From Streptomyces sp. GQFP (GTDB lineage Bacteria > Actinomycetota > Actinomycetes > Streptomycetales > Streptomycetaceae): a DNA stretch of 64,000 nucleotides. Position numbers and translations under genes: made by a program. Below, one piece after another: positions 41,031 through 60,290 of this stretch (position 1 is the stretch's first letter; the number at the start of each line of letters is the position of its first letter). The notes beneath the pieces were generated by a model. The model was not told the DNA's origin. It made no database searches and saw only the letters and a list, made by a program, of their open reading frames with translations. The stretch is taken from assembly GCF_021545335.1 (NCBI RefSeq), contig NZ_CP089312.1, positions 6,758,001-6,822,000 of the forward strand, read 5' to 3'.

Positions 41031-41078
41031 GTTCATTCCCTTTCGAAAAGCGGACTCCGGTGAGGAGCTGCGTGATCG

Positions 41079-43747: not shown

Positions 43748-43975
43748 ATGAAGAAGAGCGTTGCTGTCATCGCCGGCGCGATCATGGCGCTCGGAATGGC
43801 CTCCCCGGCGTTCGCGGACGCCGAGGCCGAGGGCTTCGCCGCCCACTCCCCGGGGGTGCTCTCCGGCAACGTGATCCAGGTTCCCGTCCACGTTCCGATC
43901 AACGTGTGCGGCAACTCGATCAACATCATCGCGCTGCTGAACCCGGCGTTCGGCAACACCTGCGTCAACAACTGA
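43748..43975 (+). CDS. chp: Short chaplin
   Basis: 75-residue short chaplin: signal peptide M-K-K-S-V-A-V-I to about A23, then one chaplin domain of about 50 residues beginning A-H-S-P-G-V-L-S-G-N-V, with V-C-G-N and N-T-C-V providing the two conserved cysteines and a strongly hydrophobic, beta-prone centre (VPVHVPINVCGNSINIIALL). It self-assembles at air-water interfaces to coat aerial hyphae. Short form without sortase signal. Beside rodlins, as in S. coelicolor where chpD neighbours rdlA/rdlB. Confidence 0.95.
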   Translation: MKKSVAVIAGAIMALGMASPAFADAEAEGFAAHSPGVLSGNVIQVPVHVPINVCGNSINIIALLNPAFGNTCVNN

Positions 43976-44992: not shown

Positions 44993-46258
44993 CTAGACGA
45001 ACTGCCCATCCAGCGGAGCGCGCTGCACGGTCACGTCACCACCCCCCACCCCCGCCCGCAACCGCCGCCGCACCCCCCGCACAAGCGTCTCCGCCGTGAA
45101 CGTCGCCCCATGCACGAACCGCATCGCAGGCCCGAAGCCCGACGCCGTCACCAGCCCCGCCAGGAACAGGCCGGGGTACGAGGACTCGAAGTGCCGCCCG
45201 ACCGCCGGTGACCCGTCCGCCAACGCGCCCAAGCCATCGGCCAGTCGCGCGTCCAGCAGACCCAGCCGGTCGGCCGTCGCCCTGAACCCCGTCGCCGCGA
45301 TGACATGTTCGGTCTCCACAGAGCACCGCTCGCCGGACCGGGTGACCGTGTCCAGCCGTACGCCACCCGCCCCGCCCGCCAACTCTCGCGTCTCCACCAC
45401 CTCCTGACCCAGCAGCACCTCCACCGCCGGTTCGACGCGGGCGCGTACCCACCACGCTCCCGCCGGGCCCAGCGCCGTCGCGGCGATGCGGGCCCGGGTC
45501 GGTCCGGGGAGGCGGTGGAAGAGGCCGGGGCGTTCGGCGTAGAACCAGTTGCGCCAGCCGCAGCCCAGGCCGCTGTGCGGTGCGCGGGCCGACCGCCACC
45601 AGGGGCGTTCCCATGCGGGCGGCACGTCGTTCCAGGTCAGCTGCTCCGCCCGCGCCAACACCCGTACCCGCGTGCCCTGTTCGGCGAGCAGCGCCGCCGT
45701 CTCCAGGGCCGCCTGGCCGCCGCCGATCACCGTGACGTCCCGGCCCCGGAAGCGGTCGAGGTCGCCGTGGTGGCTGCTGTGCGAGACGAGGTCGGGGTCG
45801 AGACTGCGGAGGGTGGCCGGGATCTCTACGAAGGGGAGGACACCGACGGCCAGGGCGACCGTCCGGGCGCGTACCGTCTCGCCGTCCTCCGTCACCACCT
45901 CGAAGCCCCCGCCCCCGGCGACGGGCGCCACCCGCGTCACTGTCCGCTCGTCGACCTCGGGCACGGCGTTGCGGGCGAACCACTGGCCGTACGCGGCGAA
46001 CATCTCCAGCGGGATCGGCTCCCCGTGCCGTGCCTCGACGCCCCGGGCGGCGCAGTACGTGTCCAGGCGCCAGCGGCCGTCGGGGTCGGACAGGTTCGAC
46101 GCCCACGGCTCCGACTTGAGGTACATGCCCCGGGGCATGTGGTCCCGCCAGGACGCCATGGGCCGGCCGAGGACGCGCAGCCGGAGCCCGGCGCCCGCGG
46201 CGTGTGAGGCGATGGACAGACCGTACGGGCCCGCGCCCACCACCAGCAGGTCGTACAT
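44993..46258 (-). CDS. FAD/NAD(P)-binding oxidoreductase, lysine N-hydroxylase-like fold
   Basis: 421 residues. Two Rossmann motifs, VVGAGPYGLSIASHA at the start and VIGGGQAALETAALLA near residue 174, with A-T-G-F near 350 resembling SidA/flavin monooxygenase-type N-hydroxylases (the family resemblance is not strong enough to fix a reaction). ATG 46258 shares one base with the stop of the ATP-grasp gene. It may modify an amino-acid or sugar substituent linked to the polysaccharide (inference). Confidence 0.85.
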   Translation of the reverse strand: MYDLLVVGAGPYGLSIASHAAGAGLRLRVLGRPMASWRDHMPRGMYLKSEPWASNLSDPDGRWRLDTYCAARGVEARHGEPIPLEMFAAYGQWFARNAVPEVDERTVTRVAPVAGGGGFEVVTEDGETVRARTVALAVGVLPFVEIPATLRSLDPDLVSHSSHHGDLDRFRGRDVTVIGGGQAALETAALLAEQGTRVRVLARAEQLTWNDVPPAWERPWWRSARAPHSGLGCGWRNWFYAERPGLFHRLPGPTRARIAATALGPAGAWWVRARVEPAVEVLLGQEVVETRELAGGAGGVRLDTVTRSGERCSVETEHVIAATGFRATADRLGLLDARLADGLGALADGSPAVGRHFESSYPGLFLAGLVTASGFGPAMRFVHGATFTAETLVRGVRRRLRAGVGGGDVTVQRAPLDGQFV

Positions 46259-47556
46259 CAGCAACTGCTCGCTTTCTCGTCGTCGGACAGGGAGTCGTCG
46301 GTCAGGGGCCCCGGCGGGCTCGCCGCCTGCCGGACCACGCGGGCCCGCGTGTCGTCCGGCCCGGCCCGCTCGCACAGCCGGCGCAGCCGGGACGGCAGCC
46401 GGCGGCCGACGTGCCGCGCCCACAGGGCCCACATCGCCCAGCCGGGCGCGAGGTCGTCCGGGGCGTGCCAGGCCAGTTCGCGGCCGGCCGGCGCCGGACG
46501 CAGCGCGCTGAGCGGCGCGTAGTTCTCGACCACGAACGCCCGCCCCGGCCGGGGCGCCCCCTCCGGCATCGGACGGTGGGTCAGATCGAGGTGCTGGGCG
46601 CGTACGACGTCCAATCCGGCCGTGTCGGTGAAGAGCCGGAACTGGGCGCCGGGGCGCGGGTTGAAGTCGAGCAGGTGGTAGCCGCCGGTCGTGGCGCAGC
46701 GGCGGAAGTCGAGGTCGAAGATGCCCCGGTAGCCCAGTTCACCGATCAGGCGTTCGGTGAGCGCCCGTACCGGCGCGTTCGGGGTCCAGTGGCCCACCGC
46801 GGTCAGTCCGGCGCCGCGCGGCCAGGCGTGCAGCTTGCGGCCGGGGCCGCCACCGCGCACGGTCCCGGTGCGGTCGGCGTACCCGTGGCTGAACCAGTCG
46901 AGGTCGGGCCCGGGCGGCAGGAACTCCTGGAGCAGCAGCCGGCTGCCCGCCTCCTCCGTGCGCAGATACAGCTCCCGCGCCTGCCGGGCGGAGCGGATCA
47001 CGACCGTGCTGCGCAGGCCGCTGCCCGCCGGGAGCAGCCAGGGCCGGCTCCACTTCGCCATCGTCGGAAGCCCGAGCCGCCAGGCCGCGGCGGCGGCCTC
47101 GGCCGCGCTGTCCGGAATCAGCGTCAGTGGATGCGGCACGCCCACGGCCGCGCACAAGGCGGCCAGTTCGGCCTTGTCGGCGACCCGTTCGGCCAGCGCG
47201 CCGGGCTGCTGCGGCAGCAGATAGGCGGGCGCCAGCTCCGCCCGCGCCCGGCCCACCGCGACGGCGCTCGCGTCGTCGAGCGGGATCAGTACGGCGGGCC
47301 GCGCGACCTGTGCGGCCACCCGCAGCAGCGTGCGGGCGATGTCGTCGGGGGCGGCGCCGGGCGGCGGCGGGGGATGCAGCCGGCGTACGAAACGGGATCT
47401 GCGTACGGGACTTCCGCTCACGTCGGCGATCAGGTGGACGTCGATGCCGGCCCGGCCGAGGGAGCGTACGGCGCCGAGCGTTCCGTGGTGAAAGGGATTC
47501 CTGTCGGTCCGTACCAGGACGGCGGGGACGCGGGTGTCGAGGAGCGACACGGACAT
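46258..47556 (-). CDS. ATP-grasp family ligase
   Basis: 432-residue ATP-grasp enzyme, like carbamoyl-phosphate-synthase-type and D-aspartate ligase proteins. Evidence: an N-terminal pre-ATP-grasp fold, the ATP-binding loop region around ADKAELAALCAAVGVPHP, and the metal site with D-F-N-P-R-P-G-A-Q-F. It forms an amide or ester bond at the cost of ATP; partner acid and amine unknown. First gene of a bicistronic unit with the FAD enzyme, divergent from the glycosidase at 47681. Confidence 0.85.
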   Translation of the reverse strand: MSVSLLDTRVPAVLVRTDRNPFHHGTLGAVRSLGRAGIDVHLIADVSGSPVRRSRFVRRLHPPPPPGAAPDDIARTLLRVAAQVARPAVLIPLDDASAVAVGRARAELAPAYLLPQQPGALAERVADKAELAALCAAVGVPHPLTLIPDSAAEAAAAAWRLGLPTMAKWSRPWLLPAGSGLRSTVVIRSARQARELYLRTEEAGSRLLLQEFLPPGPDLDWFSHGYADRTGTVRGGGPGRKLHAWPRGAGLTAVGHWTPNAPVRALTERLIGELGYRGIFDLDFRRCATTGGYHLLDFNPRPGAQFRLFTDTAGLDVVRAQHLDLTHRPMPEGAPRPGRAFVVENYAPLSALRPAPAGRELAWHAPDDLAPGWAMWALWARHVGRRLPSRLRRLCERAGPDDTRARVVRQAASPPGPLTDDSLSDDEKASSC

Positions 47557-47680
47557 GTGTTTTCGGGTTTCCTTCGGGTCGGTTCACTCGAAAGTCTTAG
47601 GCGCGGTGGCGGAATTCGCATTTGTATGACTGAGTGTCAGTAGGTGAAAAGCAGGAGAAGGAGCAGAAGAAGGAGCAGGA

Positions 47681-48985
47681 ATGGCCGCACACAAGCGACG
47701 GGCCCGATCCGGACGGCTGGCGTTCATGACGGCGGCGGTCGCCGCGTCGGCTGTCCTGGCGTCGGGTCCGGGCTACGCCGTGGGCGCGGGGGTGGCCGAT
47801 CCTCCCGTGCCCGTACCACCGACCGGGACGGTGGGCCCGGTCGCGCCCGTGGCCCCCGAACCCCCGGTGCCGCCCGAGCCGCCCAAACCCGAGCCCCCCG
47901 ACCCTCCCGAGCCCCCGAAGCTGCCCGCGTTCGGCGCGTACGTCGACTACGACGGCGCCCGTGGCACGGCCAGGATCGCCGAGCTGAGCCGCTGGCTGGG
48001 CGGCGCCGATCTCACCGTCGGGCACACCTACCTGCCGGGTGACCTGTGGAGCAACATCGAGGGGCTGCCCGGGTTCCTCGACGTGTGGGCGGACTGGCGG
48101 CGGGCCGAGGAGGACCGGCTGTTCGTCCTCAACGTGCCCATGCAGGAGCGCAACGAGGAGGGTGTCTCCGACCGCGAGGTCCGCAAGTTGCTGCGGCGCG
48201 GCGCGGCCGGTCTCTACGATCACCACTTCCGCGCCCTCGCCGAGCGGCTGGTCGCGCTGAAGATCCCGGACACCGTGATCGTGCTCGGCTGGGAGATGAA
48301 CGGCATTACCTACACCTCTCGCTGCGGGCCGGACCCGGAGGCCTGGAAGAAGTACTGGAACAGGATCGTCACCACCATGCGGTCGGTGCCGGGCCAGAAA
48401 TTCCGGTTCGATTTCAATCCGACCCGGGGCCGTGACGCCATTCCCTGGACGCAGTGTTATCCGGGGGACGACACGGTCGACATCATCGGTATGGACTCGT
48501 ACGACCAGCCGCGCGGGATCTCATTCGACGAGCAGATCAGCGAGCCGTACGGACTTCAGGCGCATGTGGATTTCGCCAAGGCGCACGGAAAGCCCATTTC
48601 CTATCCGGAATGGGGGCTGTTCCGCAACGGCGACAACCCGGAGTACATGCGGCGCATGCTCGCGTGGATGGACGAGCACAAGCCGCTGTACAACACGCTG
48701 ACCGACTACTGTCCGCACGGCGTGTGGCAGTGCGGCAGCAATCCGAAGGCGTCCGAGGTGTACCGCCAGATCCTGACGGGCCGTAAGGACCCGGAGCCGA
48801 CGGTGCCGACCCCGGTCCCGACGCCCGACCCGACCCCGGAGCCGCCGAAGCCGACGGACCCGGTCACGCCGCCCGTGCCGCTGCCGCCGGACAACTGTTC
48901 GCCGCTGGAGCTGGGCGACTGGGTGGAGTACTGGCTCGGCGGGAAGCTGTGCCTGAAGTTCGACTGGTGGTCGCGCAACCGGTGA
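47681..48985 (+). CDS. Secreted GH26-like glycoside hydrolase
   Basis: 434 residues. Signal peptide to about A36, a proline-rich linker (EPPVPPEPPKPEPPDPPEPP-like), a catalytic TIM barrel (about 85-370) with acid/base Glu in L-G-W-E-M-N-G (about 205) and nucleophile Glu in S-Y-P-E-W-G (about 310), then a second Pro-rich linker and a short C-terminal module with two cysteines (NCSPLELGDWVEYW...LCLKFDW). Arrangement fits GH26-like endo-acting enzymes. Located inside the exopolysaccharide locus, so it probably trims or releases that polymer. Confidence 0.85.
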   Translation: MAAHKRRARSGRLAFMTAAVAASAVLASGPGYAVGAGVADPPVPVPPTGTVGPVAPVAPEPPVPPEPPKPEPPDPPEPPKLPAFGAYVDYDGARGTARIAELSRWLGGADLTVGHTYLPGDLWSNIEGLPGFLDVWADWRRAEEDRLFVLNVPMQERNEEGVSDREVRKLLRRGAAGLYDHHFRALAERLVALKIPDTVIVLGWEMNGITYTSRCGPDPEAWKKYWNRIVTTMRSVPGQKFRFDFNPTRGRDAIPWTQCYPGDDTVDIIGMDSYDQPRGISFDEQISEPYGLQAHVDFAKAHGKPISYPEWGLFRNGDNPEYMRRMLAWMDEHKPLYNTLTDYCPHGVWQCGSNPKASEVYRQILTGRKDPEPTVPTPVPTPDPTPEPPKPTDPVTPPVPLPPDNCSPLELGDWVEYWLGGKLCLKFDWWSRNR

Positions 48986-49007
48986 CCGCCCGGTGGCGGC
49001 GGGTCGT

Positions 49008-50159
49008 TCACGATCCGCCGCCACCGTTCCCGTTCTCCGCTCCACCGCCGCTTCCCTCGCGGTCCCGCAGCCGGCGCAGGAGTTCCTTGCCCCGGCTGCG
49101 GGCGGCGACATCGCACACGACCGCCGACATCAGCGGCGCCGTCAGCCGCCGGGCCAGCAACAGCCGCTGGTTGACGACGGGTTCGGGCCGCCAGTGGTGC
49201 TTGTACGGCTCGTCGCCGCGCAGCAGGCTCAGCGTGTCGTGCCCGCCGGCCCCGGTGTGCTCGGCGCACGCGTCGAGCAGCATCACGGCGACGTCCGCCT
49301 TCCGTTTCCGCAGGCCCGGATGGGCGCCGTACAGATAGCCGCCCGCGAGGCGTCCCGACAGCAGGGTCAGATCGACGGCGACCACGCTGTCGTCGAGGCG
49401 GAACTCGGTGACCACGGCGTCCCCGGAGCGCACCATCGGCCCGACCGAGCGGGCGAGGTGTTCGCGGAACCGGGGCTGGAGGTGTTCCGACGTCACCTTC
49501 CGCCCCTGCCACTGGAGTTGGTGCAGTTCGAGCAGCCGGACCAGGGCCGCGTCGACGTCGTCGGGCTGGACGACGCGCCGCTCGACGCCGAGCGCGGTCA
49601 GCTTGCGCAGCTTGGCGCGGACCCGCTGGGCCTTGGAGGAGGGGAGCCGGGAGACCAGGCCGTCCATGGAGACGGCGGGGAGTTCCAGGCACAGGGAGTC
49701 CCTGACCTGGCGTCGGGGGCCACGCCAGCGCTCGTACACACGTTCCGCGGCGCCGCCCGGACGGACCTCGCGGAGGTCGATCAGCGCGGTGCGGGCGGCG
49801 TCGGAGAGGCCCTCGGCGAGGGCGGCGGCGGCCTCGTCGGCCGTGTCGTCGTCGAGGAGGACGTCACCGTAGTCGGAGATCGCGCCGCCGAGCGGCACCA
49901 GGGCGGGCAGCGGGCGGTGTACGCGCATCAGCGGGGCGGCGGCGAGGAGTTCGCCCTCCGGATCGCGGACCACGACGATCCGCAGCCGGCCCGGGACGCC
50001 GTACGACAGCCACCACGAGTGCAGCCAGGCATGGCTCTGGAACGGGGTCGCCGCGCCGCACCGCTTGTACAACCGGCCCCAGGCCGGGGCGAGTTCGGCG
50101 AAGGCGGTCTCGTCGCTGACGACTTCGGCGCGCAGGGCGCCCGTGGCCGTGACCGTCAC
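49008..50159 (-). CDS. GNAT-fold acyltransferase, CelD/BcsL family
   Basis: 383 residues, double GNAT of the CelD/BcsL type (FemAB-like): PFQSHAWLHSWWLSYG near 45, then AVDLTLLSGRLAGGYLYGAH near 265. Such enzymes acylate extracellular polysaccharides or lipids. GTG start overlaps the Wzz-like gene (GTGA). Glycine/Asn/Ser-rich C-terminus. Convergent on the glycosidase with 22 bases between the stops. Confidence 0.83.
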   Translation of the reverse strand: MTVTATGALRAEVVSDETAFAELAPAWGRLYKRCGAATPFQSHAWLHSWWLSYGVPGRLRIVVVRDPEGELLAAAPLMRVHRPLPALVPLGGAISDYGDVLLDDDTADEAAAALAEGLSDAARTALIDLREVRPGGAAERVYERWRGPRRQVRDSLCLELPAVSMDGLVSRLPSSKAQRVRAKLRKLTALGVERRVVQPDDVDAALVRLLELHQLQWQGRKVTSEHLQPRFREHLARSVGPMVRSGDAVVTEFRLDDSVVAVDLTLLSGRLAGGYLYGAHPGLRKRKADVAVMLLDACAEHTGAGGHDTLSLLRGDEPYKHHWRPEPVVNQRLLLARRLTAPLMSAVVCDVAARSRGKELLRRLRDREGSGGGAENGNGGGGS

Positions 50160-50803
50160 AGCTGTCCGTGCACATCGGCGGCGGTGGCAGGGCCCGGTAC
50201 GGAGGCCGCGGGCGCCGGTTCCTCCGTACCGCGCCGGGGTCGCACCAGCAGCGCCAGCCCGCCGAGCAGCCCGCCCGCGCTCGCGCCGACCAGCCCGGTC
50301 ACCGTGCGCGAGGCTGACGACGGCTCGGTCGGCTTGACCGCGCGCGAGAACTGGAGCAGCTCGACGTGGGTGGAGCCCTTGGTGTCGTTGGCGTGCCGGG
50401 TGAGGGAGCGGGCCACGGCGTTGGCCATGTCGGTGGCGAGGTCGCGGCGTGAGGAGGTGGCCGAGACGGCGATCATGGGCGCGTCCGGCGAGGTCGCCGT
50501 CTGCACGCTCTTCCGCAGCGTCGACACCGGTACGCCCGCCCACACCTGGGCGTCCCCGAGCACCGCGAGCTGCGTGGCGACCCGCCCGTACGCCTGCGCG
50601 AAGCCGAGCGCGGACGCCGGGTCGGACTGCTCGGTCGGTACGGCGACGACGTAGCTGGTGGCCGTGTAGGTAGGGGGCTTGAGGGTGCCGTACGCGCCGC
50701 CGAGGAGGCCGCCGAGGACGGCGCCGGCCGCGAGGAGGGTCCATGGGCGGAGGGTGCGGGTGCGGGGCGTGAGGTGGGGGGCTCTGCTGGGGTTGTCGGT
50801 CAT
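50156..50803 (-). CDS. Wzz-like chain-length/capsule assembly protein
   Basis: 215 residues with two membrane helices (about 22-40 and 173-192) framing an extracytoplasmic loop: Y-T-A-T-S-Y-V-V-A-V near 45 and S-A-T-S-S-R-R-D-L-A-T near 110 match the Wzz/capsule polysaccharide co-polymerase fold. No tyrosine-kinase domain. It regulates polymer length with Wzy. ATGA overlap with the glycosyltransferase upstream. Confidence 0.8.
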   Translation of the reverse strand: MTDNPSRAPHLTPRTRTLRPWTLLAAGAVLGGLLGGAYGTLKPPTYTATSYVVAVPTEQSDPASALGFAQAYGRVATQLAVLGDAQVWAGVPVSTLRKSVQTATSPDAPMIAVSATSSRRDLATDMANAVARSLTRHANDTKGSTHVELLQFSRAVKPTEPSSASRTVTGLVGASAGGLLGGLALLVRPRRGTEEPAPAASVPGPATAADVHGQL

Positions 50804-51963
50804 GAGGAGGGGACTCCCTGGGGTGACGGGGACGGGGTCATGGCGGGGGTGGTGGCCGCGTACACGTCCATGAGCTGCGCGGCGCTGCGGGTGATGTCGT
50901 AGTGGTGGGCGGCGGCGGGGGGCGTGCGGTCCCGCGGGCCCAGCGCGCGGGCCTCGGCGAGGGCGCGCGCGAAGGAGTCCGCGCCGCCGGGTACGCGCCG
51001 GGCGCCCTCGGCGGACTCCGGGGGCAGGTCCTCGATCGCCGGGCAGGAGACGTACCGGACGGGCAGCCCGGCGGCCAGGCCCTCCACGACCGCGAGGCCG
51101 AAGGCCTCCTCCGGGCAGGGGGAGGCGAGCAGGTCCATCGCGGAGGTGAGGGAGGGCAGGTCGGGGCCGGGGGTGCCGTCCGGCACGTACGGCCGTTCGC
51201 CGGTGAACAGCACCCGGTCGGCGACGCCCGCCTCGTGCGCCGTGCGCCGCAGGGTGTGCTCCTCGGGGCCGCCGCCGACGAGCAACAGCCAGTAGTCGTC
51301 GGGGAGTTGGGCGAGCGCGTCGATGAGGTCGCCGAAGCGCTTGCCGGGCGCCAGGCGTCCGATGCCGCCGACGACGTACGCGCCCTCGGGCAGTCCGAGA
51401 CGCTCTCGGGTGCGGTGCCGGGCGACCGGGTCGAAGCGGAACCGGGCCAGGTCGATGCCGTTGGGGACGACCTCGATCCGGGGCGCGGGCACGCCCCAGC
51501 GGCGGAGCCGGGCGGCGACCGTGGGGGAGACGGCGACGGTGGCGCGGCCGAGGCGTTCGCTGGCGAGATACAGCGCGCGGACCCCGGTGGTCAGCGGGCG
51601 CCCCTCCATCTGTGAGTCGCCGAGGGAGTGTTCGGTGGCGACGATCGCCCGTACGCCCGCGAGCCGCGCGGCGATCCTGCCGTACACGCAGGCCCGGTAG
51701 AGGTGGGTGTGCACGAGGTCGTAGCCGCCTGAGCGGATGACGTCGACCAGGCGGGGCAGGGCGGCGAGATCCCGGTTGCCGGCCATGCCGAGGTGGACGA
51801 CCCGGACGCCGTCGGCGACCAGACCGTCGGCGACCGAGCCCGGGTTGGTGAGCGTCACGACATCGCAGTCGACCGGCAAGTGCCGCAGCAGCAGCCGCAG
51901 TTGCTGCTCGGCGCCGCCGACCCCGAGCCCGGTGATGACATGCAGGGCCTTCACCGCGCTCAC
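50800..51963 (-). CDS. Glycosyltransferase family 4
   Basis: 387-residue GT-B enzyme. N-terminal G-L-G-V-G-G-A-E-Q-Q-L-R, then NGIDLARFRF near 173, GIGRLAPGKR near 207, and the retaining-GT glutamate in CPEEAFGLAVVEGLA near 300. Adds a sugar to the lipid-linked repeat. GTG 51963 overlaps the deacetylase stop (GTGA); GTG 51954 is also in frame. Confidence 0.9.
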   Translation of the reverse strand: MSAVKALHVITGLGVGGAEQQLRLLLRHLPVDCDVVTLTNPGSVADGLVADGVRVVHLGMAGNRDLAALPRLVDVIRSGGYDLVHTHLYRACVYGRIAARLAGVRAIVATEHSLGDSQMEGRPLTTGVRALYLASERLGRATVAVSPTVAARLRRWGVPAPRIEVVPNGIDLARFRFDPVARHRTRERLGLPEGAYVVGGIGRLAPGKRFGDLIDALAQLPDDYWLLLVGGGPEEHTLRRTAHEAGVADRVLFTGERPYVPDGTPGPDLPSLTSAMDLLASPCPEEAFGLAVVEGLAAGLPVRYVSCPAIEDLPPESAEGARRVPGGADSFARALAEARALGPRDRTPPAAAHHYDITRSAAQLMDVYAATTPAMTPSPSPQGVPSS

Positions 51964-52766
51964 ACCCCCTCGACCGGCCGGCGCCGCAGCCGGTGCAGCC
52001 GGTACTTGAGATGCAGGCGTACGGCGGTGTCGTTCTCGCCGATGTGGACGCGGGGGAGGACGTGGACGCCGTTGAGCTGCCCGGGGTCGATGGCGACGCC
52101 GTATCCGTATCCGGCGTCCCGCACGGCGTCGACGGCCCGCTGGTCGACGGTCCCGTACGGATAGCAGAACCCCGCCACCGGAGCACCGCTCAACTCCGAG
52201 AGCAGTGCTCTGCTTTCGGCGACCTCGGCACGCAGCAGCTCGTCGTCCGCCTTCGTCAGGTCGACGTGCGTCAGTCCGTGCGACCCGATCTCGATGCCGG
52301 CCTCGGCGACGGCCCGGATGCCGTCCGCCGTGAGCAGCGGCTTGCGCGGGCCCAGCGGATCCCAGGCGTTCTCCCCGCCGAGCCGCCCCGGCAGCACGAA
52401 GAGGGTCGCGCCGCAGTCCCAACGCTCAAGCACCGGAAGGGCGCCCGTGAGGAAGTCGGCGTACCCGTCGTCGAAGGTCAGCCCGACCAGGCCGCGCCCC
52501 TCGCCCCGGGCACGGGCGGCGAGCAGCTCGGCCACCCCGACGCCCCGCAGCCCGCGCCGGTGCAGCCACCGCAGCTGGGCGTCGAGGCGGTCGGGCGTGA
52601 CCGTGATGCGGTAAGGGTCGTCCGAGCAGTCGCCCACGGAGTGGTACATCGCCACCCAGGGGACGGAACCGGGGCGGGCGGCTCTTCGGCGCCGGTCAGC
52701 GGACGCGGTCGCGGCGGCGGGGACGGGGGCGGGCGTGGGCGTGGGTGCGGGTGCGCTTGCGGGCAT
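51960..52766 (-). CDS. Polysaccharide deacetylase
   Basis: 268 residues with the NodB domain: MYHSVGD, the catalytic TFDDGY near 97-102, metal histidines in SHGLTHVDL near 161, and the GFCYPYG near 192. The Pro/Ala-rich N-terminus lacks a clear signal peptide or membrane helix. ATG 52766 gives a 71-base overlap with the flippase gene; a shorter start near 52640 would remove it but lose no conserved motif. Deacetylates the amino-sugar residues of the polymer. Confidence 0.88.
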   Translation of the reverse strand: MPASAPAPTPTPAPVPAAATASADRRRRAARPGSVPWVAMYHSVGDCSDDPYRITVTPDRLDAQLRWLHRRGLRGVGVAELLAARARGEGRGLVGLTFDDGYADFLTGALPVLERWDCGATLFVLPGRLGGENAWDPLGPRKPLLTADGIRAVAEAGIEIGSHGLTHVDLTKADDELLRAEVAESRALLSELSGAPVAGFCYPYGTVDQRAVDAVRDAGYGYGVAIDPGQLNGVHVLPRVHIGENDTAVRLHLKYRLHRLRRRPVEGV

Positions 52767-54588
52767 GCGGCAGCCTTCGGGTCAGGGAGCGTACGGAACG
52801 GAGGGCGAGGACGAAGCTCTGCACGGCCTGGGCCCGCATGAGCCGGCCCAGCAGGAAGAAGACGACGGTCACGGTCGCCGTACCGGCGGCGAGCCCCGCC
52901 ACCGGCCCGTCGATCCGGCTGGTCACGAACGCCCCCGCGGCCGTCGCGCACACCGCCGCGCGCACCGGCTTGCTCAGCTCGGCCAGCACCCGCCGGGTCC
53001 GGATCGGCACACTGCGCGGAACTCTTCTCACAAGCGCTCGCCTACGGGATGCCACAGCCGGTGTCGAGGGCACGACCGTGCTCAGCCCTTCGGGCCTCCG
53101 CGCGCTCGCACCCTCGACACCGGCGCATCCCTTCGGCTCACGTGCCCCGTACAGCAGCAGGACGGCCGACAGTGTGATCCCGGCCGCGTTGGCGGCGGCG
53201 ATCCCGGAGACCCCCCACGGGCCGACGGCCCACACGCCGATCCAGGTGGTCGCGACGATGCCCGCGGTCATCGAGGCCAGCGGGTACCAGGTGGGCCGGT
53301 TCGAGGAGAAGTACGAGCGGATGAGCGCGCCGACCAGCGTGTGCCCGAGCAGCCCGACCGCGTACACGCGCATCACGGTGGCCGTCGCCTCGGTGTCCCG
53401 GGCGGTGAACGCGCCCCGCTGGAAGAGGAGTTCGATGATCTGCGGCGCACACGCGACCACCGCCGCCGCGCCGAGCAGCACGACCCAGGCGGCCAGAGCG
53501 AGATCCCGCTCCACGCGGTCGCGGGCCCGCTCGGTGTCGCCCTCCGCGATCGCCTGCGCGACCACCGGGAAGGTGACCGTGCACAGCATCAGCGACAGCG
53601 TCATCGGGATCTGCGCGACCTTCTGCGCGTAGTTCAGGTGCGAGATGGCCCCGGCGGGCAGCGTGGAGGCGAGGAACCGCTCGATGAGCACCTGCGACTG
53701 CCGGGTCAGCGCGAACAGCAGCACCGGCGCGACGAGCGCGAACGCCATCGGCGCCCCGGACGTCTCCTCCACCACGATCTCTTCCGGTACCGCCGACCGG
53801 CGCCGCCGCAACTGCCGCAGCACGGAAGGCAGTTGGGTGACGACCATCAGGGCGCCGCCCACCGCCACCCCGACCGCCGCCGAGCGCACCCCCCAGTGCC
53901 CGCCCAGCACGAACATCGCCGTGATGATGCCGACGTTGTAGGCCACGTAGATCGCCGCGGGGGCCAGGAACCGCCGGTGCGCGCGCAGGGCCGCGCTGCA
54001 GTACCCGGCGAGCCCGAAGCTGAACACGCAGGTGGCGGTGAGGCGGGTGCAGTCCACGGCGAGCGACGGGTCGGGCAGCCCGGGGGCGAGCGCCTCGACC
54101 AGGTAGGGAGCGCTGGCGATCAGCAGCGCGCCGACCCCCGCGCAGGCCAGCGCCAGCCGGGGCAGCGTCGACGCGACCAGCGCCCGCACCGGATCACCGG
54201 GGGCACCCTGGGCGCGCCGGGCCAGCGCCATGCTGAACGCCGGGATCAGGACGAAGGCCAGCCCGTCCTCGATGAGCAGCGTCGCCGCGAACTCCGGCAC
54301 GGTCCACGCGACGAGGAAGGCGTCCGTGTCACTGCCGGCCCCGAACAGCCGGGCCAGCGACTGGTCCCGGACCAGCCCGAGCAGCGCCCCCGCGACCGAG
54401 AGGACGGCCGTGATGAGCGTGGCCTGGGCGAGGAACTTCCGGGAGACGGGGGCGAGTTCGGCAGCGGCACTACCCCCCTCGTCCCCCTCCTCGCCGCTTC
54501 CCTTCGTTGTCGGCGAAGCGGCGGCGCGTGCCGCGGGCAGCGTCACCCTGGTCTCTCCCTCGGGCCGAGGAGGCGTCACGTTCGTCAC
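52696..54588 (-). CDS. MurJ/MviN-like lipid flippase
   Basis: 630 residues with about 14 hydrophobic segments, including FLAQATLITAVLSVAGALLG at the first and the NYAQKVAQIPMTLSL motif typical of MVF-superfamily flippases, then a basic C-terminal tail. In polysaccharide clusters such proteins flip undecaprenyl-linked repeats. GTG overlaps the O-antigen-ligase-like gene (GTGA). The cytoplasmic N- and C-termini carry long acidic and basic extensions, respectively. Confidence 0.88.
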   Translation of the reverse strand: MTNVTPPRPEGETRVTLPAARAAASPTTKGSGEEGDEGGSAAAELAPVSRKFLAQATLITAVLSVAGALLGLVRDQSLARLFGAGSDTDAFLVAWTVPEFAATLLIEDGLAFVLIPAFSMALARRAQGAPGDPVRALVASTLPRLALACAGVGALLIASAPYLVEALAPGLPDPSLAVDCTRLTATCVFSFGLAGYCSAALRAHRRFLAPAAIYVAYNVGIITAMFVLGGHWGVRSAAVGVAVGGALMVVTQLPSVLRQLRRRRSAVPEEIVVEETSGAPMAFALVAPVLLFALTRQSQVLIERFLASTLPAGAISHLNYAQKVAQIPMTLSLMLCTVTFPVVAQAIAEGDTERARDRVERDLALAAWVVLLGAAAVVACAPQIIELLFQRGAFTARDTEATATVMRVYAVGLLGHTLVGALIRSYFSSNRPTWYPLASMTAGIVATTWIGVWAVGPWGVSGIAAANAAGITLSAVLLLYGAREPKGCAGVEGASARRPEGLSTVVPSTPAVASRRRALVRRVPRSVPIRTRRVLAELSKPVRAAVCATAAGAFVTSRIDGPVAGLAAGTATVTVVFFLLGRLMRAQAVQSFVLALRSVRSLTRRLPHARKRTRTHAHARPRPRRRDRVR

Positions 54589-55916
54589 GCCGAGGCCTCG
54601 GCCTCGGGCACGCAGTCGCCGCCGACGAGGGCCCACCAGGCGACGAGCCCGAAGGCGAGGGCGGTCAGCACGGTCGCGGGCCCGCCGATGTCGGCGTACA
54701 GGAAGTCGATCAACTGCCAGAGCAGCAGCCCGCAGGCGACGAGCGCGCAGTCGAGTCCGGACGTACGGCTTCGGCGCACCCGCACGAGCCCGCGCAGACC
54801 GCACACGAGCAGCGCCAGCCAACTGCCGCCGAGGGCGAGGAGCCCGATGAGCCCCTGCTCACTCAGCACCAGCAGGTACATGTTGTGCGGGGACAGCAGT
54901 GGCTGTTTGCGGTAGGCAGCGCCCGCGCCCTCCGTGTCGCTGCCCGAGGACAGGGCCAACGAGGCGTGTCCGTCGCGGTGTTCGGGGAAGCCCTTCAACC
55001 CGACGCCGGTGAGCGGGTGTTCGCTCCACATGTCGGTCGCCGCCGCCCACATCGTGTACCGGTCGGTGACCGACTGGTCGGGGGCGTCGGCGACTTGGGT
55101 GATGCTGCTGATCCGCTCCTGCAGCATCGCCGTACCGACACCGAGCCCGCCGACCAGGATCACCGCCGACGCGGCCACCACCGCGCCCACCTTCAGCGCG
55201 CGCCGCATCCCGGCCAGCGCCACCTGGATCGCGCAGGCCGCCGCCGTGGCGATCCAGGCGCCGCGGCTGAAGGAGACGGCGAGCGGGGCGAGCAGCACCA
55301 GGGCGCAGCCGGTGGCAACGGCCCGCTGGCGCGCGGCAGTTGACCCGAGGGCGAGCCCCACCGCGCACATCAGCCCGAACGACACCACGGTCGCCATGCC
55401 CATCACGTCGGCGGGCCCGAAGGTGCCCACCGCCCGGATCTCCTCGCCCTGGTAGGAGGCGCCGGTCCCGGTCGCGTACTGGTGCACCCCGACCGCCCCC
55501 TGGAACAGGGCGAAGGCGACGAACGCCCAGGCCAGCACCCGGAAGTCGCGCCGGTCCCGGACGAGCAGCACCACGGACGCCGGGACCAGCACGAAGATCT
55601 GGAGGTAGCGTCCAAGGCCTCCGATCCCGGCCCCCGGCGAGGACGCCCCGACGGCCGCGACCGCGAGCCCGACCACGGGCATCCCGAGCACCACGGCGGC
55701 CGTACGGGACAGGGGGCGCCGCCGCTCCCGTACGAGCCGGATCGCGCAGTAGAGGACCACGAGCCCGGAGACGGCGTCGGCCGGGGTCGCCCCGCCGTCG
55801 GAGCCCTGCGCGGCCGGCAGCGCGAGCAGGGCGATCACCAGCATGACCGGCAGCAGTGGGGCGAAGGAGGCGAGGGGCACTCTGTACGGCAACGTCAGCG
55901 CGGGGCTGTGGCTCAC
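54585..55916 (-). CDS. Wzy/O-antigen ligase-like polymerase
   Basis: 443 residues with about 11 hydrophobic segments and one large extracytoplasmic loop (about 260-330) carrying H-P-L-T-G-V-G-L-K-G-F-P, followed by H-N-M-Y-L-L-V-L-S-E-Q-G-L-I-G, the conserved O-antigen ligase/polymerase pattern. It polymerises repeats on the outer face of the membrane. GTG 55916 starts 6 bases after the upstream stop, whose terminal codons supply the AGGAAG ribosome site. Confidence 0.87.
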   Translation of the reverse strand: MSHSPALTLPYRVPLASFAPLLPVMLVIALLALPAAQGSDGGATPADAVSGLVVLYCAIRLVRERRRPLSRTAAVVLGMPVVGLAVAAVGASSPGAGIGGLGRYLQIFVLVPASVVLLVRDRRDFRVLAWAFVAFALFQGAVGVHQYATGTGASYQGEEIRAVGTFGPADVMGMATVVSFGLMCAVGLALGSTAARQRAVATGCALVLLAPLAVSFSRGAWIATAAACAIQVALAGMRRALKVGAVVAASAVILVGGLGVGTAMLQERISSITQVADAPDQSVTDRYTMWAAATDMWSEHPLTGVGLKGFPEHRDGHASLALSSGSDTEGAGAAYRKQPLLSPHNMYLLVLSEQGLIGLLALGGSWLALLVCGLRGLVRVRRSRTSGLDCALVACGLLLWQLIDFLYADIGGPATVLTALAFGLVAWWALVGGDCVPEAEASA

Positions 55917-55921
55917 CGCTC

Positions 55922-57385
55922 TCAACTTCCTGTCGGTCGGACGAGCGCGGCGGCGGTGCGCAGCAGGATGCAGATGTCCTGCCACAGCGACCAGTTGTCG
56001 ATGTAGGCGTTGTCGAACCGGCAGCGGTCCTCGATCGAGGTGTCACCGCGCAGACCGTGGATCTGGGCGAGCCCGGTGATCCCGGTCTGCATCCGGTGGC
56101 GGGCTGCGTAGCCGGGGTAGGTCTGGCTGAACTGCCCGACGAAGTACGGGCGTTCGGGCCGCGGACCGACCAGGCTCATGTCGCCCCAGAGGACGTTCCA
56201 CAGCTGGAGCAGTTCGTCGAGCGAGGTCCGGCGCAGGAAGCGGCAGAACCAGTTCATGCGCCGCTCGTCGGCGACGCTCCAGCGGGTCGCCGCCTCCATC
56301 TCGTCGACCGGGCGGTGGGTACGGAACTTGAGGAGGGTGAAGGGCCGCCCGTCCATGCCGATGCGCTCCTGCCGGAAGACCACACCGGGCCCGCCGGTCA
56401 GCCGCAGCACGACCGCGCAGAGCAGCAGCAGAGGCGAGACCATCAGGAGCAGCGCGCCCGAGACCACGACATCGAGCATGCGCTTGCCGATGCTGCCCGG
56501 CCGGTCCGGCACCATCGCGAGCCGCCGGCAGGAGAACCCGGCGAGCCGTTCGGCGCTCTCGTACGAGGGGGACTCGGCGTCGATCTCCCACACCGTGCAG
56601 CCCGACTCGGCCAACGCCCGCAGCAGCGGCCCCTGTTCGGCCCGTACGGAGGGATGGACGGCGAGCACGGCCCGGACGCCGTTCTGGATCAGCGCCCGCT
56701 CGACCTCCTCGCCGGTGGTCAGCACGGGCAGGCCCGCCACACCGTCCGGGTGGTCGGTGACGAGCCCCACCGGCCGTACCCCGCACGCCGGGTGGCGCAG
56801 GAAGGCGGCGGCCACGCGCCGGGCGGTGCCGGCCGGGCCGATGACGAGGGCCGTGTGCGGGCGGCGCAGCCGCGCCCGGCGCCGCACCCGGTGGACGGTC
56901 CCGCGGCCCACCGCACTCGCCGTCGCCTGTACCGCGCAGCCCAGGACGAGGGTCCGTGCGGACAGCGCGTCGGCGGGTGCGTACGCCCCGACCACGGCGG
57001 CCAGCGCCAGCCAGCCCATCGCGATCCGGCCGCAGACGGCGGGCAGTTCGTCGAGGAACGCGGGCACGGACTCGGGCCGGTAGAGCGAGGCGCGTGTGTT
57101 CAGTACGACCACACCGAGCAGCAGCGCGCCGACGAGGAGGGGGTGGCGCAGGGGCTCGGTCAGCGCCAGGACGCCGAGCAGGGCGGCGCTGCTGTCGACG
57201 GCGAGCAGCGGCAGCGGGGAGGCCGGCCGGGGCGCGGGACGCCGGCCGGCCGGGAATCTGAAGCCGCCGGCCGACCCGCGGGGCGGGATGACCGAGACGG
57301 CGGACGCAGATACGGCGGACACGGTCGAGAATCCGTGCTCCCGCGGCCCTCCGCCGGGGGAGGGGACGGTACTTTCCGCAGTCAC
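55922..57385 (-). CDS. Undecaprenyl-phosphate sugar phosphotransferase (initiating)
   Basis: 487-residue polyprenyl phosphoglycosyltransferase of the WbaP/Cps type. N-terminal four-helix membrane part, a CoA-binding-like domain, then the C-terminal catalytic domain with KRMLDVVVSGALLLMVSPLL, F-R-T-H, R-R-T-S-L-D-E-L-L-Q-L-W-N-V and G-D-M-S-L-V-G-P-R-P-E. It loads the first sugar-1-phosphate on undecaprenyl phosphate. GTG start overlaps the glycosyltransferase stop. Confidence 0.93.
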   Translation of the reverse strand: MTAESTVPSPGGGPREHGFSTVSAVSASAVSVIPPRGSAGGFRFPAGRRPAPRPASPLPLLAVDSSAALLGVLALTEPLRHPLLVGALLLGVVVLNTRASLYRPESVPAFLDELPAVCGRIAMGWLALAAVVGAYAPADALSARTLVLGCAVQATASAVGRGTVHRVRRRARLRRPHTALVIGPAGTARRVAAAFLRHPACGVRPVGLVTDHPDGVAGLPVLTTGEEVERALIQNGVRAVLAVHPSVRAEQGPLLRALAESGCTVWEIDAESPSYESAERLAGFSCRRLAMVPDRPGSIGKRMLDVVVSGALLLMVSPLLLLCAVVLRLTGGPGVVFRQERIGMDGRPFTLLKFRTHRPVDEMEAATRWSVADERRMNWFCRFLRRTSLDELLQLWNVLWGDMSLVGPRPERPYFVGQFSQTYPGYAARHRMQTGITGLAQIHGLRGDTSIEDRCRFDNAYIDNWSLWQDICILLRTAAALVRPTGS

Positions 57386-58563
57386 GAGTGGATGGACTCC
57401 CTGTACTCGGCGCGCACGGGCGGCACGGCGTGCGCGGTGATCAGCTCGCGGTACACGCCCGCGACGGCCTCGGCGGTGTGCCGTACGTCGTGCGCGGACA
57501 GGACGTGCCGACGCCCCAGTTGCCCCAGCGACTCACGCAGCGGCGGGTCGAGCAGCAGTTCGGTGACGGCTCCGGCCAGCGCGGCGGGGTGCTCGGCCGG
57601 CACCAGACAGCGCGGTGCGAGAGCGGCGGGCAGACTCTCGCGCCCGCCGTCCACATCGGTGACGACCACCGGCCGCCCGCAGGACATCGCCTCCAGCGGC
57701 GCCAGCGCCATGCCCTCCCAGCGCGAGGGCAGGACGACCAGATCGGCGGCCCGGTACCAGGGGACGGCATCGGCGACGGCCCCCGCGAACAGCACGGAGT
57801 CCGGGGCGAGCGCCCGCAGCCGCCCGGCGTCCGGGCCGTCCCCGACGAGCACGAGCCGCGCCCCCGGCACCCGTTCCGCGATCTCGCCCCACGCCCGGAG
57901 CAGCACGTCCTGCCCCTTCTGCCGGCACAGCCGCCCCACGCACACGACCAGCGGAGCACCCGGATCGACCTCGGCGAGCAGCGGAATCCCGGCCCGTACG
58001 GGGTTCTGGGCCGCGGGCCGGAAGCGCTCGGTGTCGATCCCGTTCGGGATCACCCGCCACTGCCCGGTGATCCCGGCGCGTACGCCGGTCGCCCGCTCGG
58101 CGTCGCTCACGCACACCACGCGGGAGGCCCAACGCGCCCCCCACCGCTCCCACTTGAGCGCCAGGGCCGCGGTGGACCCGCCGACCGCCTCGAACGACCA
58201 GGCGTGCGGCTGGAACACCGTCGCCACCCGGCCCCGTACCGCCAGCCGGGCGGCGAGCCCGGCCTTCGCGCTGTGCGCGTGCACGACATCCGGCCGCACC
58301 GCCCCGATCAGCCGTCCGAGCCGCCGTACCTCCCCGGCGAGCGAGGGGCCCGGGGCGCGCGTCGCGTGCCAGGGGCGTACGCCGGCGCCGAGCGCCCGCA
58401 GTCGCGCCGGGAGTTCACCGCCGTCCGGGCAGGCGACCGTGACGTCAAGACCGGCGGCGAGCTGTGCCCGCGCCAGGTCCGTGACGACCCGGGCCACCCC
58501 GCCGTCCACCGGCTGGGTGATGTGCAGGACCCGGGGCCGGGGGTCGGGTGCTGACAGTTGCAT
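57382..58563 (-). CDS. Glycosyltransferase family 4
   Basis: 393-residue GT-B enzyme: ITQPVDGGVARVVTDLARA at the start, the H-A-H-S-A-K-A-G-L motif near 95, VIPNGIDTERFRP near 177, GRLCRQKGQD near 208, and the terminal E in MALAPLEAMSCGRP. Similar to EpsF/Cap-type enzymes. Follows the DUF3344 gene by 45 bases and overlaps the phosphotransferase by 4. Confidence 0.91.
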   Translation of the reverse strand: MQLSAPDPRPRVLHITQPVDGGVARVVTDLARAQLAAGLDVTVACPDGGELPARLRALGAGVRPWHATRAPGPSLAGEVRRLGRLIGAVRPDVVHAHSAKAGLAARLAVRGRVATVFQPHAWSFEAVGGSTAALALKWERWGARWASRVVCVSDAERATGVRAGITGQWRVIPNGIDTERFRPAAQNPVRAGIPLLAEVDPGAPLVVCVGRLCRQKGQDVLLRAWGEIAERVPGARLVLVGDGPDAGRLRALAPDSVLFAGAVADAVPWYRAADLVVLPSRWEGMALAPLEAMSCGRPVVVTDVDGGRESLPAALAPRCLVPAEHPAALAGAVTELLLDPPLRESLGQLGRRHVLSAHDVRHTAEAVAGVYRELITAHAVPPVRAEYRESIHS

Positions 58564-58608
58564 GCGCGGTTTCCTCGCTCACGGGTGGCGGCGTTGGACG
58601 CGCCTCGG

Positions 58609-59712
58609 CTACTGCCGGGCGTCGACGGCCACGAAAAGTGCGCCGGCCCACGCCGCGTCCCGCTGGGAAACGAGCCGGAAGGCCAGCTGGTCACCACCGC
58701 GCCGCAGCGCCGTACCCAGTTCGAACACGTCGGAGTCGTAGCCGAGGGTGTTCGCGTACGCCGGAACGCGCTCCGAGGCGGCGCCGCCGATCGTGGAATT
58801 CAGCACGTCGTCGCGGGGGTTGGCCGCGTCCCCGAGCACGGTCGTGCGCCCCGCGACGGACACCGTCAGGGAGTCGCCGGGGCTGCCGCGGTCCCCGTTG
58901 TAGGCGACCAGACCCGCCCGCCCGTTCGCGCCCACCGGGAACCCCAGTTCGGCCAACCGGACCAACGGAACGTCACCCTCACGGGCTTCCAGCGTGTCGA
59001 ACCCGTCCCACACGGCGAGGTGCCGCAGCGGCTCCGCGGCCTTCTCGTACGCCACGACCAGCGTCCAGCCGCCCCACGCGCCGACCGCCGACCTCCCCAT
59101 CGCCACATTGACCTGCGCGACCGTGTACAGCCCCGAACCGCTCTCCCGGACCAGCTTCGTGACATCGGCGGAGGCCTGGAACGCGTCGGCACCGCGCGCC
59201 ACCCGGTGCCCGACGACCGAGTCCGCGAGCAGCTCCTTGTACTCCCCGCCGGGCTCGGCGATCAGCACCCGCCCGTTGTCCTCCGGCGGCTTCTGCTCAC
59301 CGACCTTGAGATTGCCGCCCCAGTACAGCCGCGCGTACGAGACCCGCCCGCCCTGCGGCACCCGGACCTCCGCACGGCTGGAGTTGTACGTGTTCGGATC
59401 GCTGTCGACATCGACGTAGAACATGTCGAAGTCACCGTTGACCGCCGCCTTCGCGCCGCCGGTCCCGCTCGCGAGCTGCTCGCCCCTGCGGACGCCCGCG
59501 CAGGTCCCGAGGGTGGCGCGGCAGCTGATGGACGTGTTGGCCGCGCGGACGATCCCGCCGTGCTGGAGGGCTTGGTAGCGCGGGGCGAACGCGAGGCGCG
59601 CGGCCTCCTTGCCGGGCTCGGCCGTCGCCGTACCTCCCGGAGTGCAGATCGCGGCGAGGGCAAAGACGCCCACCATCGCACGGCGCAGCGGAAGACCCGG
59701 GGAAATACGCAT
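58609..59712 (-). CDS. Secreted DUF3344 protein
   Basis: 367 residues. Signal peptide M-R-I-S-P-G to about A35, then a DUF3344-like beta-rich region (NTSISCRATLGTCAGV, YARLYWGGNL, TGAWGGWTLVVAYEK-like). DUF3344 proteins are extracellular, of unknown function, often with repeats in other actinomycetes. I chose ATG 59712 over the longer frame starting at 59874. It stands at the head of the polysaccharide operon and may be structural or adhesive. Confidence 0.8.
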   Translation of the reverse strand: MRISPGLPLRRAMVGVFALAAICTPGGTATAEPGKEAARLAFAPRYQALQHGGIVRAANTSISCRATLGTCAGVRRGEQLASGTGGAKAAVNGDFDMFYVDVDSDPNTYNSSRAEVRVPQGGRVSYARLYWGGNLKVGEQKPPEDNGRVLIAEPGGEYKELLADSVVGHRVARGADAFQASADVTKLVRESGSGLYTVAQVNVAMGRSAVGAWGGWTLVVAYEKAAEPLRHLAVWDGFDTLEAREGDVPLVRLAELGFPVGANGRAGLVAYNGDRGSPGDSLTVSVAGRTTVLGDAANPRDDVLNSTIGGAASERVPAYANTLGYDSDVFELGTALRRGGDQLAFRLVSQRDAAWAGALFVAVDARQ

Positions 59713-59963: not shown

Positions 59964-59991
59964 CACAACCCGGGCGCGCGCCACGCGTTGA
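59964..59991 (+). promoter_or_regulatory. BldN-like promoter of chaplin 2
   Basis: CACAAC (59964-59969), exactly 16 bases, then CGTTGA (59986-59991): 4/6 and 6/6 to the recalled sigma-BldN consensus. Predicted start near 59998, about 53 bases before the chaplin ATG. Confidence 0.65.
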
Positions 59992-60050: not shown

Positions 60051-60290
60051 ATGTCGCGTATCGCGAAGGGCCTCGCCCTTTCCTCCGTTGCCGTCGCCGC
60101 TGTGGCGGGTACCGCCGGTGTCGCCGCCGCCGACAGCGACGCGCACGGCGTCGCTGCCCACTCCCCGGGCGTCCTGTCGGGCAACGTCCTGCAGGTTCCG
60201 GTCCACGTGCCGGTCAACGTCTGCGGTAACACCATCAACGTCATCGGTCTGCTGAACCCGGCGTTCGGCAACACCTGCGTCAACGACTGA
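60051..60290 (+). CDS. chp: Short chaplin
   Basis: 79-residue short chaplin. Signal peptide M-S-R-I-A-K-G to about A27, then the chaplin domain beginning AAHSPGVLSGNVLQVPVHV with V-C-G-N and N-T-C-V cysteines. It is 75-80% identical to chaplin 1 in the domain but not in the signal peptide. AAGGAG with 9-base spacing. Separate locus about 16 kb from the first. Confidence 0.96.
   Translation: MSRIAKGLALSSVAVAAVAGTAGVAAADSDAHGVAAHSPGVLSGNVLQVPVHVPVNVCGNTINVIGLLNPAFGNTCVND

Follow-up and report, generated by a model that had tools for sequence, protein, structure and literature searches.

A conserved locus for a probable Wzx/Wzy-type polysaccharide with holdfast-like tailoring genes in the rodlin–chaplin region of Streptomyces

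In the Caulobacter holdfast, a Wzx/Wzy pathway is joined by two presumed tailoring enzymes for lipid-linked sugars or sugars of the polymer, a deacetylase and a FemX-like tandem-GNAT transferase (PMC5362036, PMC8449245, PMC6372794). HfsK is the tandem-GNAT protein, has FemX as its closest solved relative and may acylate amines freed by HfsH (PMC5362036), and both enzymes tune holdfast cohesion and anchoring (PMC8449245, PMC6372794). Among actinomycetes, the wps clusters of Actinoplanes are developmentally transcribed Wzx/Wzy loci: wps-1 has a GH26 gene and is needed for sporangia, and wps-3 encodes a GT4 enzyme, a deacetylase, a BioF2-like acetyltransferase and an FAD monooxygenase, its deletion being without phenotype (PMC13390465). 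In Streptomyces itself, the ste cluster of Streptomyces sp. 139, with glycosyltransferases and a Wzz gene, makes the heteropolysaccharide ebosin (PMC8902715, PMC11078827, PMC4347597), and MatAB—which makes poly-N-acetylglucosamine (PNAG)—and CslA/GlxA provide matrix polymers for adhesion and pellets, with CslA working with chaplins (PMC5972031). Gene contents and phenotypes of all these systems are taken from the available excerpts of the cited papers, and the comparisons below extend to these excerpts. Here, we describe a polymer locus of Streptomyces sp. GQFP, embedded between chaplin loci in a window (the whole stretch of DNA analysed) of 64 kb, G000:C1:6758001-6822000, which is part of a single 8.3-Mb contig and has a G+C content of 71%.

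The center of this locus is a run of nine minus-strand genes between 49.0 and 59.7 kb (Table 1), called by codon-position composition and named with Pfam and NCBIfam. In the order of transcription, from 59712 to 49008, they encode a DUF3344-like protein, the glycosyltransferase GT4a, a polyprenyl-phosphate sugar-1-phosphate transferase (PGT), a Wzy-type polymerase, a MurJ-like flippase, a deacetylase, the glycosyltransferase GT4b, a Wzz-like protein and a tandem-GNAT transferase. Every gap in these gene calls measures 45 bp or less and several neighbors overlap by 4 bp; hence, the nine genes are likely one operon. The first-pass annotation, made from the sequence alone, had listed these genes as contiguous, and all of them were found in place—the Wzz and DUF3344 labels being weaker, as both matches fall below the Pfam cut-offs. 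We consider it likely that the locus directs the synthesis of a secreted Wzx/Wzy polysaccharide with holdfast-like tailoring by the deacetylase and the FemX-fold transferase.

Table 1 Features of the polymer locus and its surroundings; positions are those of the 64-kb window, and the nine operon genes come first in their order of transcription.
Feature	Position	Strand	Evidence and remarks
DUF3344-like protein	58609..59712	-	PF11824 4.8e-5, below Pfam curated cut-off; first operon gene; accessory
GT4a, GT4 glycosyltransferase	57382..58563	-	PF13692/PF13439
Polyprenyl-phosphate sugar-1-phosphate transferase (PGT)	55922..57385	-	PF02397 1.1e-58; start codon unsure
Wzy-type polymerase (putative: polymerase vs ligase)	54585..55916	-	PF04932 3.2e-19, 69.6 bits, cut-off 31.7
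MurJ-like MOP flippase, presumed Wzx	52696..54546	-	PF03023 3.9e-62, 210.8 bits
Polysaccharide deacetylase	51960..52766	-	PF01522 6.8e-25
GT4b, GT4 glycosyltransferase	50800..51963	-	PF13439/PF00534
Wzz-like chain-length protein	50156..50803	-	PF02706 4.2e-4, 21 bits vs cut-off 25.5; TIGR01006 weak
PF13480 tandem-GNAT transferase, FemX fold	49008..50159	-	PF13480 2.9e-24
GH26-like glycosidase	47681..48985	+	PF02156 3.2e-6, 27.2 bits vs cut-off 20.2
Palindrome TGACTGAGTGTCA	47627..47639		Between GH26 and ATP-grasp genes; fits BldD box TNAC-N5-GTNA
ATP-grasp ligase-like protein	46258..47556	-	26-sequence profile finds PDB ATP-grasp enzymes, 6.6e-7
FAD/NAD(P)-dependent oxidoreductase	44993..46264	-	PF13738 7.5e-19, PF13434 6.7e-15
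Rodlin/chaplin-type promoter dyad, before right chaplin	59965..59991	+	Motif scan
Further dyads before three rodlins	42945, 42898, 41106	+, -, -	Motif scan
Short chaplin, right	60057..60290	+	PF03777 1e-29
Short chaplin, left	43724..43975	+	PF03777 6.3e-30
Wall protein with PPTK repeats and LPPTG sorting tail	44079..44882	+	Repeat and tail reading
Three rodlins	40623-41036, 42414-about 42800, 43016-43429	-, -, +	Mutual homology
LCP protein among rodlins	41209-42243 or 41209-42306	-	PF03816 7.5e-38

The locus is widespread in the genus. A Wzy homologue is present in 109 of 150 sampled genomes (the window's own included), and the 20 kb around wzy were read in 80 of these 109, with gene presence scored by tblastn at ≥40% identity over any length. 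Seven core genes—GT4a, PGT, Wzy, MurJ-like, deacetylase, GT4b, and Wzz—occur together in 79 of the 80 loci, accompanied by GH26 in 77, GNAT in 74, ATP-grasp in 46, DUF3344 in 39, FAD in 37, and an LCP homologue in 9. With GT4b as distribution marker, 161 of the 200 genomes examined from the Streptomyces family are positive, spread over 6 of its 17 genera; among 394 genomes sampled across the class, 42 are positive, of which 33 belong to the genus and nine to a second family (f17). Together with loci from further f17 genomes, thirteen f17 loci with a GT4b of more than about 53% identity were read; one of them is truncated at a contig end, and another, L236, is rearranged. PGT and GT4b are found in all 13, Wzy and MurJ-like in 12, GT4a, GH26, ATP-grasp, and FAD in 11, and GNAT in 6, and a deacetylase matches at fair identity in all but one. 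Judged from these matches, the co-occurrence of the core genes exceeds chance in the genus, and most of them recur together in f17. DUF3344 is absent from all 13 f17 loci, which makes it an addition within the genus; there, by its homology pattern, it decays: 54 of the 150 genomes have a strong homologue (E<=1e-60), and seven have only remnants in the corresponding position.

The family assignments differ in firmness. The PGT surpasses the NCBIfam cut-off of TIGR03025 (335.9 vs 295.6 bits) and stays below those of WcaJ, HfsE, and others. The flippase belongs to the MurJ-like MOP superfamily rather than to a typical Wzx model, and misses the NCBIfam murJ equivalog cut-off (218.4 vs 235.6 bits). 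The DUF3344-like protein carries a signal-peptide-like N-terminus when read from the start at 59712; its structure model is poor, with a predicted local distance difference test score (pLDDT) of 58.7, so that its fold matches were not used, and a profile search of the PDB gave nothing but an irrelevant match at 0.81. For the Wzy protein, the NCBIfam matches are to O-glycosylation-ligase-like families—a putative O-glycosylation ligase at 7.3e-16 and TfpM at 1.3e-4—and all lie below cut-off. They bear on a different explanation, namely that this Wzy_C protein is a ligase that moves a glycan to a secreted protein such as the DUF3344-like protein, the PPTK wall protein, or a chaplin; in keeping with it, the first operon gene here encodes a secreted protein. 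However, the retention of Wzz in 79 of the 80 loci suggests chain-length control, and the 54 strong DUF3344 homologues stand against 109 of Wzy, the full gene being absent from many Wzy loci. Protein glycosylation is quite improbable in our estimate.

The deacetylase and the GNAT-type transferase are the parts that recall the holdfast. The deacetylase, in which no signal peptide or membrane helix was seen when the sequence was read by eye, has as its nearest NCBIfam models PgaB (2.8e-15), HfsH (6.6e-11), and NodB (6e-8), all below their cut-offs; PgaB and HfsH model enzymes that act on exported hexosamine polymers. A structure model of the transferase, of good confidence and built from 25 sequences (pLDDT 87.4), finds the aminoacyl-tRNA-dependent synthases 9wqx and 9wqy, FemX, and MprF as best PDB matches in Foldseek; against FemX 1xe4, the Foldseek E-value is 4.4e-11 and the template modelling (TM) score 0.55/0.61, a likeness of fold only. 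The HfsE model also matches the PGT, as the HfsH model matches the deacetylase, but both remain below cut-off and fail as equivalogs, with 148 of 750 and 42 of 400 bits, respectively. Unlike the holdfast, the window system lacks outer membrane export and a polar adhesin, and has GH26, ATP-grasp, FAD, and a MurJ-like flippase. The likeness is hence best taken as an analogy of parts, in which the transferase is likened to HfsK by description and by its FemX fold.

A further match of the deacetylase points in another direction. Its best PDB hit, 6dq3 (2.3e-12), is listed as a polysaccharide deacetylase, and we take it to be a streptococcal enzyme of the linkage-unit type that acts outside the cell. 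The product might accordingly be a wall-linked glycopolymer, attached to peptidoglycan by LCP-type ligases, with the deacetylase acting on the hexosamine of the linkage unit—a reading into which the MurJ-like flippase and the LCP protein among the rodlins would also fit. Yet no export signal was seen in the window deacetylase, and the LCP homologue is found in nine of the 80 loci only, which is weak evidence as LCP proteins encoded at other sites could take over this task. We regard wall linkage as rather unlikely.

For the secreted, tailored polysaccharide that we favor, we infer the sugar chemistry, the order of steps, and the role from the observed gene identities, conservation, linkage, and fold. 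The PGT would load the first sugar onto the lipid carrier, and the two GT4 enzymes would build a short repeat. The deacetylase, seemingly without signal peptide, might free an amine on an N-acetyl sugar, and the FemX-fold transferase might re-acylate this amine, or acylate another site, perhaps with an amino acid. The MurJ-like flippase would carry the repeat unit outward, where Wzy would polymerize it under the control of Wzz, and the secreted GH26 enzyme may trim or release the polymer. In the about half of the genus loci that have them, the ATP-grasp and FAD enzymes might produce or attach one more substituent. The pairing of a deacetylase with a FemX-like transferase, as in Caulobacter, suggests by analogy a matrix polymer that would be sticky and in part cationic and would lie on the surface of the hyphae.

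The GH26, ATP-grasp, and FAD genes had been annotated as lying beside the locus. They do, but are more than neighbors: since 11 of the 13 f17 loci have all three next to the core genes, they are parts of the system. The ATP-grasp and FAD genes overlap by 7 bp on the minus strand, and GH26 runs opposite. The GH26-like protein shows a signal-peptide-like N-terminus and Pro-rich linkers, and its PDB relatives are beta-mannanase chains (best 4.7e-4); a beta-mannoside or related linkage would be a guess at its target. As a single sequence, the ATP-grasp protein has no Pfam match. The FAD protein matches several pyridine-nucleotide/flavin families, all of them generic with respect to the reaction.

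Between GH26 and ATP-grasp, the palindrome TGACTGAGTGTCA fits the published BldD box, TNAC-N5-GTNA (PMC4151990). In this stretch, the BldD-box pattern recurs in 29 of 47 ATP-grasp loci vs three of 31 GH26 loci without ATP-grasp, where shuffles give about 1-2; these loci are related and not independent. The window holds six sites of the pattern, and before the first operon gene it occurs in two of 81 cases vs 2.1 expected. The palindrome is a possible, putative BldD-type regulatory site, and as its middle bases are conserved beyond what the box requires, another regulator is possible as well. The exact palindrome was rejected as a regulon motif: of five genomes, four have a single copy of ATGACTGNNTGTCA, at the polymer locus, and the fifth has two, and the reversed control pattern likewise gave one match in three of the five. 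Scans for BldM, SigE, SigR, HrdB, and WhiG sites with consensus patterns gave counts near those of shuffled sequence before the first operon gene; upstream of GH26, five SigE-like sites were found vs 1.4 expected. Control by bldA was dismissed too, as the locus genes in the window have no TTA codon and such codons are rare elsewhere (GT4a 5/81, MurJ-like 2/80, PGT 2/81, Wzy 1/81).

The position between two chaplin loci, also part of the first-pass annotation, is borne out by PF03777 chaplins on both sides and rodlins on the left. It recurs through the genus: with a hidden Markov model (HMM) built from the chaplins of these same loci, a chaplin is found in the 20 kb read in 59 of the 80 loci and on both sides in 30. 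By tblastn, the arrangements divide into 30 with chaplins on both sides, 11 upstream only, four downstream only, and 13 behind the GNAT gene, the rest having none. In the latter 13, a same-strand chaplin follows GNAT, the last operon gene, at 195-326 bp. These loci form one clade with L069 as single exception, and lie 0.13-1.29 Mb from the contig end in five long-contig genomes, whereas in nine genomes compared from the other types this distance is 1.5-4.4 Mb (some of the genomes, G066 and G052 among them, consist of several contigs). In G005, the only genome checked in this respect, the region of three rodlins and chaplins at 6.17 Mb (L247) has no polymer genes, the polymer locus lying elsewhere. 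On a three-protein FastTree tree, which holds 100 of 101 rows and omits L112, the presence of a chaplin switches at least 11 times.

In f17, a ChpA-C gene above the Pfam cut-off lies no more than about 2 kb away from the polymer genes in three of the 13 loci, L136, L236 (2.6e-12), and L237 (1.8e-6); the remaining ten were screened by the home-built HMM and tblastn alone. The chance of at least three such loci is 0.00004-0.001, assuming 2-6 chaplin loci per 8 Mb and ignoring relatedness. The L136 gene (L136:16942-18363; ChpA-C 3.5e-22) encodes a protein with repeated chaplin-like units, and the FAD gene of its polymer locus is 0.9 kb away. Given the 59 loci, the several arrangements, the relocated version that still has a chaplin, and the f17 cases, the chaplin link is more than a local accident. 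It is a real gene neighborhood, unproven as function; probably, the genes stand together because both serve the hyphal surface.

An alternative to such a shared purpose is that the nearness is inherited synteny without function and the locus an ordinary exopolysaccharide locus that happens to lie beside chaplins in the chromosomal core, which we hold to be possible but less likely than not. Against it stand the retention of a chaplin in several arrangements, including the 13 loci behind GNAT, the separate rodlin–chaplin region of G005, and the f17 neighbors. On its side, promoter motifs are not common to chaplins and polymer genes. The dyad [ACG][CA]AAC-N16-18-GTTGA, which we take to be of the sigma-BldN type, stands out upstream of rodlins (40/67) and chaplins (18/67), with 0.3 expected each. 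Sigma-BldN is described to drive both chaplins and rodlins (PMC4125116). Before the polymer genes, the dyad is found in 0/35 cases for DUF3344, 0/28 for GH26, 0/47 for ATP-grasp, and 2/81 for GT4a (0.15 expected), and by this measure they lie outside chaplin/rodlin promoter control. The sensitivity of the dyad is limited by its incomplete coverage of rodlins and chaplins, and it misses chaplins too: the left chaplin of the window has none, and of the 13 relocated chaplins only one has it in the tested stretch even when the pattern is relaxed.

The chaplin distribution in f17 also favors synteny, as 13 of 22 GT4b-positive genomes carry chaplins vs 81 of 98 GT4b-negative ones (p 0.02, sign reversed). 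The nine GT4b-positive genomes without chaplins have a GT4b of 44-51% identity, and eight of their neighborhoods, some contig-cut, show no Wzy or GH26 match; when the nine are dropped after the fact, the counts become 13/13 vs 81/107 (p 0.07). Neither association nor avoidance is claimed from these numbers. Across the class, 40 of the 42 GT4b-positive genomes carry chaplins, most of them being Streptomyces, where all sampled genomes have chaplins.

Several observations weigh against a tailored polysaccharide that acts with the chaplins, and some of them count for synteny at the same time. The window has four dyad sites, none before a polymer gene. Chaplins are lacking within the 20 kb read in 21 of the 80 loci, spread over several clades—L073 and L099 have a rodlin, G058 has a chaplin about 4 kb upstream of GT4a just beyond the stretch read, and G031 has chaplins further downstream—and all 41 Wzy-negative genomes of the genus carry chaplins. 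Both markers, Wzy and GT4b, are missing in 29 of the 150 genomes. The other 12 Wzy-negative genomes have a GT4b match, and their loci comprise three with GT4b alone in 20 kb, two reduced, one decayed, and several contig-cut ones. The reduced loci, L115 (G064) and L116 (G136), keep DUF3344, PGT, GT4b, and FAD beside a chaplin, with Wzz also in L116, and show no match to Wzy, flippase, deacetylase, or GNAT in the 20 kb read; L118 (G147) is a natural core deletion in which rodlins, chaplins, ATP-grasp, a MurJ fragment, and DUF3344 are left. The polymer is hence dispensable. The GNAT tailoring step is not universal either, as the gene is missing in six of the 80 genus loci and seven of the 13 f17 loci. 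Several family matches are below curated cut-offs, no initiating sugar can be read from the sequence, and aminoacylation is a guess, because the FemX fold covers acyl-CoA users, with tandem GNATs in the same match list.

Altogether, the chaplin linkage is not obligatory, and either system often occurs without the other; the polymer does not depend on chaplins. Of the first-pass proposal that the polymer acts with chaplins at the hyphal surface, the recurrent linkage has stood up, whereas the polymer genes lack the rodlin/chaplin promoter dyad and the two systems separate freely. A stronger version appears doubtful to us: a deacetylated, possibly aminoacylated Wzy polymer that would be glued to or through chaplin-domain amyloids as a counterpart of the holdfast, the pair being kept through relocation and in f17, and GH26 and ATP-grasp/FAD standing under control of cyclic diguanylate (c-di-GMP) and BldD. 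Chaplins would then be the anchor, by analogy to the Hfa proteins in Caulobacter.

The surroundings of the locus hold further surface proteins. The three rodlins have no Pfam match and were named by resemblance and by their mutual homology. A third chaplin lies just beyond the window end (G000:C1:6822556-6822723). The genome, whose assembly is rated 78% complete, gives three chaplin matches in total, all at the polymer locus, and its close relative G090 gives eight. The PPTK wall protein is secreted and has about 30 tandem repeats (12-bp unit, 30.2 copies). In L037, L044, and L075, its place is held by a long chaplin with a similar sorting tail; the window and L035 have a repeat stalk here and no chaplin domains. 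The wall protein is a possible surface partner. Right of the chaplin, two small plus-strand proteins with signal-like N-termini (60509-61276 and 61441-61734) match no Pfam family above cut-off; their homologues lie close to chaplins in several loci. Left of the rodlins, a VWA/YfbK-like protein with a lipoprotein-like N-terminus is encoded at 36527-38131 (+).

Set against the other described systems, the locus stands apart. By description, Actinoplanes wps-1 has GT2/GT26 enzymes and sulfotransferases and wps-3 an aminotransferase and a dioxygenase, so neither equals the gene set of the window (PMC13390465); as these clusters are developmentally transcribed and wps-1 is needed for sporangia, a developmental role of the window locus is plausible by analogy, not shown. 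The ste cluster comprises 27 open reading frames with a DasR/DasABC-like regulator-transporter and nucleotide-sugar genes, and the excerpts state no chaplin link; identity with the ebosin locus was excluded on published gene content only. MatAB is a PNAG-type and CslA a cellulose-like synthase, with no Wzx/Wzy set described in the excerpts (PMC5972031). The first-pass annotation knew of no description of the polymer, which agrees with the open-access literature, where none was found among the matches listed; ebosin, MatAB, and CslA are other loci. In S. coelicolor, we place the counterpart at about SCO2706-2715, presuming chpF to be SCO2705 and chpA SCO2716. Among the open-access matches listed for SCO2704-2715, none of the excerpts concerns the locus, and the one with SCO2713 concerns a small RNA. 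SCO2704, which is outside the presumed range, is overexpressed in an argR mutant in the available text (PMC5839063). The polysaccharide locus is real, conserved, and apparently undescribed.

According to the available part of the Actinoplanes study, no GH26-bearing Wzx/Wzy cluster besides the one of Actinoplanes has been characterized (PMC13390465); the window locus is a second, conserved one. The cited papers hold few matrix glycans for Streptomyces—MatAB, CslA, and ebosin—and the present polymer locus is found in most sampled genomes of the genus, encodes tailoring enzymes of the kind that sets stickiness in Caulobacter, and adjoins the genes of the amyloid, water-repellent coat. If it is true that the polymer meets the chaplins at the surface, the locus would offer a genetic handle on the anchoring of the coat and on hyphal adhesion.

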